A stretch of DNA of 64,000 nucleotides from Solirubrobacteraceae bacterium (GTDB taxonomy: Bacteria > Actinomycetota > Thermoleophilia > Solirubrobacterales > Solirubrobacteraceae): NCBI GenBank assembly GCA_031177685.1, contig JAPSGI010000005.1:62001-126000 (forward strand), written 5' to 3'. Positions 37,563-38,227 of this stretch are shown in pieces. Numbering within the stretch: the first letter of the stretch is position 1; every line of letters begins with the position of its first letter. Both the position numbers and the translations under genes were made by a program. Under the pieces are notes generated by a model. That model was given only the letters and a program-made list of their open reading frames with translations, did not search any database and was not told the DNA's origin.

Positions 37563-38152
37563 GGCTCCGCCGGGCCGGCGCGGAACGTGCGCACCATGCC
37601 GCGCGTCGCCGCGCGGTAGCGCGCCGCGGGGGCGCGGGCGGTGCGGAAGAAGATCAGCGTGAACGTCACCCGCCCGCGCCGGCGCAGGGCGGTGACCCGA
37701 ATCGCCTGGCGCAGGCTCGTGCGCGCGAACACGCCGCGCGCGCTCACCGTGGAGCCGGGGTAGCGCGCGCCGCGCAGCGGCTGCGGGCGGCCGACGCGCA
37801 GGGCGCGGTAGCCCTCCAGGGAGTTCGCGGTGCGCCGGACGTAGACGTCCGCCGGCAGGTCCCGTCCGTCGGCGCTGCGGTCGGCCGCGATGCTCACCGC
37901 CAGCAGGCGATCGCCCGAGCGCACCAGCGTGGCGCCGCGCGCGCCGCGCGCCTTCCAGCCCGGCGGGATGCCGAGCGAGAACCCGGCCCGCCGGTTGACG
38001 ACGCGCGTCCAGCCGCGCGGCAGCGGCCCGCGCCGGTCCGCGCGCTCCTGCGGCGTCGTGGAGACGGGCGCCGGCTCGTCGTCGCCGCACCCGCCGGCGG
38101 CTGTGGCGCAGGCCAGGACCGGCAGCAGTATCGCGAGGCGGCGCGGCGGCAA
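37559..38152 (-). CDS. Putative lipoprotein directly downstream of tRNA-Arg
   Basis: 197 residues. A lipoprotein signal (AILLPVLACATAAGGC, modified Cys at 22) then a domain GWTRVVNRRAGFSLGIPPGWKARG resembling the fold of small actinobacterial PsbP/LpqN-like lipoproteins; no firm family. The only start near the signal peptide is a TTG at 38152, one base after the tRNA-Arg discriminator. There is no room for a ribosome site, so initiation is probably leaderless. It converges with pyrE. Confidence 0.75.
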   Translation of the reverse strand: MPPRRLAILLPVLACATAAGGCGDDEPAPVSTTPQERADRRGPLPRGWTRVVNRRAGFSLGIPPGWKARGARGATLVRSGDRLLAVSIAADRSADGRDLPADVYVRRTANSLEGYRALRVGRPQPLRGARYPGSTVSARGVFARTSLRQAIRVTALRRRGRVTFTLIFFRTARAPAARYRAATRGMVRTFRAGPAEP

Positions 38153-38153
38153 G

Positions 38154-38227
38154 TGCCCCGACCTGGATTCGAACCAGGGGCCTACTCCTTAGGAGGGAGT
38201 CGCTCTATCCAACTGAGCTATCGGGGC
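38154..38227 (-). tRNA. tRNA-Arg (anticodon CCT)
   Basis: 74 bases on the minus strand. Acceptor GCCCCGA/TCGGGGC, D-arm GCTC/GAGC, anticodon stem ACTCC/GGAGT with loop CTCCTAA (anticodon CCT, reads AGG), T-arm CCTGG/CCAGG with TTCGAAT, discriminator A at 38154. All stems pair perfectly. CCA is not encoded. One base (38153) separates the discriminator from the TTG start of the lipoprotein gene. Confidence 0.98.

Follow-up and report, generated by a model that had tools for sequence, protein, structure and literature searches.

Protein-coding genes that begin flush with tRNA 3' ends in Solirubrobacterales, and a possible origin of leaderless messages in tRNA maturation

In the tRNA punctuation of animal mitochondria, excision of tRNAs by RNase P and ELAC2 leaves leaderless mRNAs. 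The thrU-tyrU-glyT-thrT-tufB operon of E. coli is a bacterial tRNA-mRNA operon, in which the tufB leader and its Shine-Dalgarno sequence lie well after the tRNA. In actinobacterial leaderless genes, a TANNNT box is found about 10 nt before an ATG or GTG (PMC3160421, PMC4633059), and the 5' end of the message is set by transcription initiation. A post-transcriptional cut by the stress toxin MazF has been proposed to create leaderless mRNAs in E. coli, a proposal disputed by later work (PMC9031893). In a search of the open-access literature, we found no bacterial report of a leaderless mRNA made by tRNA processing. Here, we describe two sites in the window (the whole 64,000-nt stretch of DNA that was analyzed, from a soil actinobacterium of the order Solirubrobacterales) at which a coding sequence begins one nucleotide after a tRNA gene. 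The first of these comprises the following features and neighbors:

38154..38227, minus strand: tRNA-Arg(CCT), discriminator A at 38154, CCA not encoded
38153..38153, minus strand: spacer C, the single base between discriminator and start codon
37559..38152, minus strand: intact ORF of a predicted lipoprotein, 197 aa, TTG start
38238..38243, minus strand: putative -10 box TACGCT of the tRNA-Arg promoter, 10 nt upstream of the tRNA 5' end, a consensus match only
36852..37562, plus strand: pyrE (orotate phosphoribosyltransferase), convergent neighbor of the lipoprotein gene in the order as a whole, true start probably near 36999
38292..39263, plus strand: oppC-like permease gene, divergent neighbor of tRNA-Arg, conserved in relatives

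The initial annotation had the tRNA end at 38154, with one base (38153) before a TTG at 38152, and this geometry is borne out. ARAGORN calls the tRNA at 38153-38227(-), and the 7-bp acceptor pairing GCCCCGA/TCGGGGC sets the discriminator at A38154; copies of this tRNA are 96-99% identical in many relatives. The start codon, TTG at 38152-38150, comes right after C38153. The lipoprotein frame opens at an in-frame TAA (38191-38189) inside tRNA-Arg, and from that codon on no ATG, GTG or TTG other than TTG38152 lies ahead of the mature lipoprotein. Because of this stop codon and the lack of other NTG codons, TTG38152 is assigned as the start, and the claim that the signal peptide contains no alternative start codon stands. 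Further, the lipoprotein's relatives from other families start at the point equivalent to TTG38152. Read by eye, the N-terminus MPPRRLAILLPVLACATAAGGC appears to have a basic n-region, a hydrophobic core, and a possible lipobox Cys in two positions. The protein has no match in Pfam or NCBIfam. Its ORF has its highest coding score in its own frame, and the product is 55% identical to the same-genus copy. The gene is missing from most genomes searched, being found in 14 of 232 at E<=1e-10. Its stop codon and that of pyrE, both TAG, overlap in one CTAG palindrome (37559-37562).

The second junction that had been claimed, with the same 1-base spacing, is also real. It consists of tRNA-Lys(CTT) at 5256-5329, T5330, and ATG5331:

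5256..5329, plus strand: tRNA-Lys(CTT), called by ARAGORN, discriminator A at 5329
5330..5330, plus strand: spacer T, a single base
5331..6122, plus strand: aminotransferase class IV gene (PabC/BCAT-like, PF01063), 263 aa, ATG start flush with tRNA-Lys
5238..5243, plus strand: putative -10 box TATCCT of the tRNA-Lys promoter, a consensus match only

The best named relatives of the PabC-like protein belong to Solirubrobacterales. By consensus only, the promoters of both tRNAs look normal.

These junctions resemble the tRNA punctuation of animal mitochondria (PMC8437803) in that a tRNA abuts a start codon with little or no leader and that cleavage at the tRNA 3' end, proposed here, would make the mRNA 5' end. 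They differ in their setting: a bacterial chromosome, single tRNA-gene pairs, few per genome, each apparently behind the tRNA's own promoter. By their sequence they are candidates for tRNA-punctuated leaderless mRNAs. With tufB they would share co-transcription of a protein gene behind a tRNA, yet the gap here is 1 nt. Like the proposed MazF products, their messages would be made leaderless by a post-transcriptional cut, in this case by housekeeping tRNA maturation rather than a stress toxin. The actinobacterial leaderless genes (PMC3160421, PMC4633059) come from the same lineage, include relatives of the same genes, and have no Shine-Dalgarno leader; the 5' end here, however, would be set by tRNA 3' processing. 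These promoter-type leaderless genes are defined by an ATG or GTG start, which the tRNA-Lys/PabC junction has and the lipoprotein, with its TTG, lacks. They are also defined by the -10 box, and TANNNT is absent 6-9 nt upstream of both TTG38152 and ATG5331; these two genes are therefore not leaderless genes of the promoter type. Strict TANNNT lies just upstream of 8 of the 63 crudely predicted window genes, compared with 1.4% of background ATG/GTG codons. To judge from this motif, other genes in this lineage use the ordinary leaderless promoter, unlike the flush genes.

Gene order in relatives suggests how the tRNA-Arg junction arose. Four Conexibacter-type genomes (L118, L119, L122, and G022, the last pieced together from L046 and L108) share the arrangement oppC, tRNA-Arg, FUSC-like gene, lipoprotein, pyrE, ykuD, in which the FUSC-like gene, so called by eye, encodes ~390 aa. 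The convergent arrangement of the lipoprotein gene with pyrE and ykuD forms a block present in three families. In the window genome, the order is oppC, tRNA-Arg, lipoprotein, pyrE; the FUSC-like gene is missing and the lipoprotein gene touches the tRNA. In the g22 genomes, a FUSC-like gene separates tRNA-Arg from the lipoprotein gene, two other genes do so in L121, and in the g14 genomes and G004 pyrE adjoins tRNA-Arg without the lipoprotein gene. The lipoprotein gene has a leaderless promoter of its own (TANNNT-N6..9-ATG) in L046, L118, L119, L122, L049, and L121. The simplest reading is that a deletion removed both the intervening gene and this promoter; alternatively, the FUSC-like gene may have been inserted in the other lineage. 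The 1-nt spacing between tRNA-Arg and lipoprotein was not found in any relative examined, and the flush junction is known from one genome, the contig of the same-genus copy stopping within the lipoprotein gene.

The PabC-like gene offers more loci for comparison. TANNNT occurs 4-9 nt before the candidate start in 52 of 80 named loci (background 1.4%) and in 0 of the 9 loci with tRNA-Lys within ~120 nt (Fisher p 6e-5), a contrast partly confounded by phylogeny, given that leaderless motifs are rarer in one family involved. The gaps at these nine loci range from 1 to 68 nt. Co-transcription of the PabC-like gene with tRNA-Lys thus looks recurrent by its arrangement, with flushness one of several forms; the pairs other than the window's lie 4 to 68 nt apart, so being flush would not be a condition of co-transcription. 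At L072 and L168 (G007), the sequence ahead of the PabC-like gene reads TAGACT, six bases, and ATC. With no ATG, GTG or TTG in frame upstream of the conserved core, this ATC may serve as a leaderless start.

How common flush junctions are was assessed in four complete tRNA sets (178 tRNAs), namely that of the window genome (3.15 Mb) and those of three genomes picked for assembly quality, one for each other family of the order represented here. A codirectional coding start lies within 300 nt of 79 of the 178 tRNAs, and the gaps are 1, 1, 1, 2, then 16, 21, 23, 27, and up. In the window genome, tRNA-Arg(CCT) and tRNA-Lys(CTT) are the only flush cases among 45 tRNAs, with no third codirectional coding start within 25 nt. 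The next nearest follows tRNA-Val(GAC), 28 nt away, after the purine-rich, Shine-Dalgarno-like stretch gaaaggcagggggag. Four of the five gaps of <=20 nt fall at 0-2 nt (binomial p 0.0018, on small numbers); without the window genome, two of three do (p 0.055). An effect common to all tRNAs was considered and rejected on the count of 2/45. It had been argued that two such junctions in 64 kb are unlikely to be chance. Their number does exceed a smooth gap distribution, but the implied density was overstated, as these are the only two among 45 tRNAs. The genome-wide scan of tRNA-to-start distances proposed at that time yields a separate flush class (1, 1, 1, 2, then 16 upward), but no broad peak. 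The further suggestion of a general way to generate leaderless messages in this lineage is not upheld by 2/45 tRNAs here and 4/178 across the four genomes. A discrete class of flush tRNA-gene junctions exists in the order; it is rare and is not a general source of leaderless messages.

The mRNA 5' end would be made by RNase Z. Streptococcal RNase Z cuts CCA-less tRNA precursors right after the discriminator (PMC8549757), and the B. subtilis enzyme is stimulated about 200-fold by a U within 2 nt of the discriminator (PMC10100781). The window genome contains a gene for RNase Z (TIGR02651, 305 bits, above the cut-off), and CCA is encoded at 1 of the 178 tRNAs. Of the same 178 tRNAs, 166 have such a U, including 45/45 in the window genome. 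At the focal junction, the T of TTG38152 together with spacer C38153 places a U within 2 nt of the tRNA-Arg discriminator. A preference of RNase Z for such a U would account for the spacer forms T-RTG, CT-RTG and, at the focal junction, C-TTG. By sequence, both window junctions appear to be competent RNase Z substrates. In 176/178 tRNAs of these genomes (G000, G037, G180, G039), C or T comes directly behind the discriminator; in three genomes, tRNA-His, followed by CC, is among the exceptions to T within two bases.

We also scanned 232 genomes of Solirubrobacterales for a T-arm consensus followed by RTG at a fixed distance (gaps 0, 1, 2, 4, and 7). Raw RTG counts at gap 1 were dropped as evidence, since many are non-coding chance matches; to count, a case had to be both confirmed as a tRNA and scored as coding. 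Among the loci fetched at gap 1, ARAGORN confirmed 46 as tRNAs, the spacer being T in 46/46, and at 16 of them an ORF scored as coding begins. L280 and L282, positive by score, were set aside from the independent pairs, as internal methionines may be their true starts. There remain about ten independent tRNA-U-RTG/coding-gene pairs, of varied isotypes and unrelated genes:

tRNA-Arg(CCG) / alkyl sulfatase
tRNA-Arg(TCT) / APH-like
tRNA-Tyr / SDR, four genomes (L230 scored zero)
tRNA-Gly(TCC) / polyketide cyclase-like, two genomes
tRNA-Lys / PabC, in the window
tRNA-Thr(TGT) / Fe-ADH-like
tRNA-Thr(CGT) / small protein, two genomes
tRNA-Lys / TfoX_N
tRNA-Pro(CGG) / DSBA
tRNA-Arg(TCT) / unknown

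Products of flush genes match models for alkyl sulfatase, APH, SDR, polyketide cyclase, Fe-ADH, TfoX_N, DSBA, and acylphosphatase. When comparable samples of 30 loci were scored, confirmed tRNAs were followed by a coding ORF in 0/2 cases at gap 0, 8/13 at gap 1, 4/17 at gap 2, 2/13 at gap 4, and 3/15 at gap 7; the contrast of gap 1 with the other gaps (Fisher p 0.005) is overstated, as some genomes are close relatives. After tRNA-Thr(TGT), similar proteins with a WRDGER-type N-terminus occur in L240, L307, and L309, the one in L240 being Fe-ADH-like. The gap is 1 in one of these genomes and 2 in the others, making this a second recurring pair with a sliding flush junction.

At both window junctions, the space between tRNA and start is too small for a promoter, and the tRNA itself has no suitably placed -10 box; for these reasons, the lipoprotein and PabC-like genes probably reside on the tRNA transcripts. 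Where relatives of both genes have TANNNT, 6-9 nt, and ATG/GTG, the window genome has a tRNA 3' end instead. RNA polymerase would start at the tRNA-Arg(CCT) promoter and read through into the lipoprotein gene. A cut by RNase Z immediately after the discriminator would then free the tRNA and leave an mRNA beginning 5'-C-UUG, to be translated leaderless or nearly so. The deletion would have taken the gene between tRNA and lipoprotein plus the latter's leaderless promoter; the tRNA end would now provide the 5' end once set by the lost promoter, which may be why the junction survived. Independent events of the same kind could lie behind the tRNA-Lys/PabC-like junction (5'-U-AUG) and about ten other pairs in the order. 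We infer co-transcription, cleavage, leaderless translation, and the direction of the deletion; together, co-transcription, RNase Z cleavage, a message with a 1-nt leader, and birth by deletion make up the best explanation of the junction, one that we favor with modest confidence. The main doubt concerns the TTG start, because TTG initiates poorly on leaderless mRNA in mycobacteria: M. smegmatis does not use it effectively to begin leaderless translation (PMC4633059), and it makes up 3% of leaderless starts in P. acnes (PMC3848588). Also counting against this explanation are starts at gap 4 (L499, L500).

Ordinary compaction would account for the same arrangement if deletions packed a co-transcribed gene against the tRNA and its translation were independent of tRNA processing, ribosomes initiating on unprocessed or variably trimmed transcripts. 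The sequence AGGT, in the 3' strand of the T-stem 8 nt before TTG38152, could perhaps act as a weak Shine-Dalgarno sequence for the lipoprotein, and TTG works well with a Shine-Dalgarno sequence in mycobacteria (PMC4633059); the tRNA-Lys/PabC pairs that look co-transcribed at gaps of 4-68 nt fit as well. However, AGGT would be paired within the tRNA and removed by RNase Z, the tRNA-Lys/PabC-like junction has no Shine-Dalgarno-like sequence, and the gaps concentrate at 1-2 nt, hardly any falling at 3-20. We consider it unlikely. More doubtful still is that the lipoprotein gene, its promoter and standard start gone, is decaying or expressed at a low level, or else initiates at a non-NTG codon (such as ATA38131 or CTG38128), its contact with the tRNA being incidental. 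The weakness of TTG as a leaderless start points that way, as does the absence of the gene from most genomes searched, a sign that it can be lost. The intact 197-codon frame, its coding composition, its identity to the same-genus copy, and the agreement of TTG with the starts of relatives, from which a normal signal peptide follows, speak against it. Very improbable is a promoter inside the tRNA gene that yields a separate leaderless transcript from at or near the start codon: the -10 box of relatives, 6-9 nt before the start, would fall in the 3' half of the tRNA, but neither window tRNA, nor any other flush tRNA listed, has TANNNT at that spot.

The junction is thus real, the lineage feature is real but rare, and tRNA processing as its mechanism is plausible, if unproven. 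If true, leaderless messages would arise in bacteria through the ordinary trimming of tRNAs, much as in mitochondria, and some protein levels would be coupled to tRNA transcription and RNase Z activity. An evolutionary path is also suggested, in which a leaderless gene needs just a defined 5' end and, once a deletion has taken its promoter, can obtain that end from a tRNA. More tentatively, and short of a claim that we would favor, tRNA 3' maturation by RNase Z may be a recurrently evolved substitute for the leaderless promoter in Solirubrobacterales, the need for U dictating U-RUG, CU-RUG or C-UUG; the odd TTG start of the lipoprotein would then follow. Annotation is affected as well, since a program that demands a leader could overlook flush starts or put them in the wrong place.

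Some smaller features of the scanned loci deserve mention. The same spacer is seen at L499 and L500, where genes resembling by eye a CrcB-type channel and prolipoprotein diacylglyceryl transferase start 4 nt after tRNA-Lys and tRNA-Glu, with ctcg in both. In G039, G051, G083, G070, G197, G034, and G187, similar strings ending in TGTGATG or TGTGTGATG occur a few bases past the discriminator of several different tRNAs, a pattern in which the search itself selects RTG. In the small protein after tRNA-Thr(CGT) at L249 (G036), the first 17 residues, MSDDIRELILDLPLVDT, are repeated in tandem, unlike in the relative at L250.
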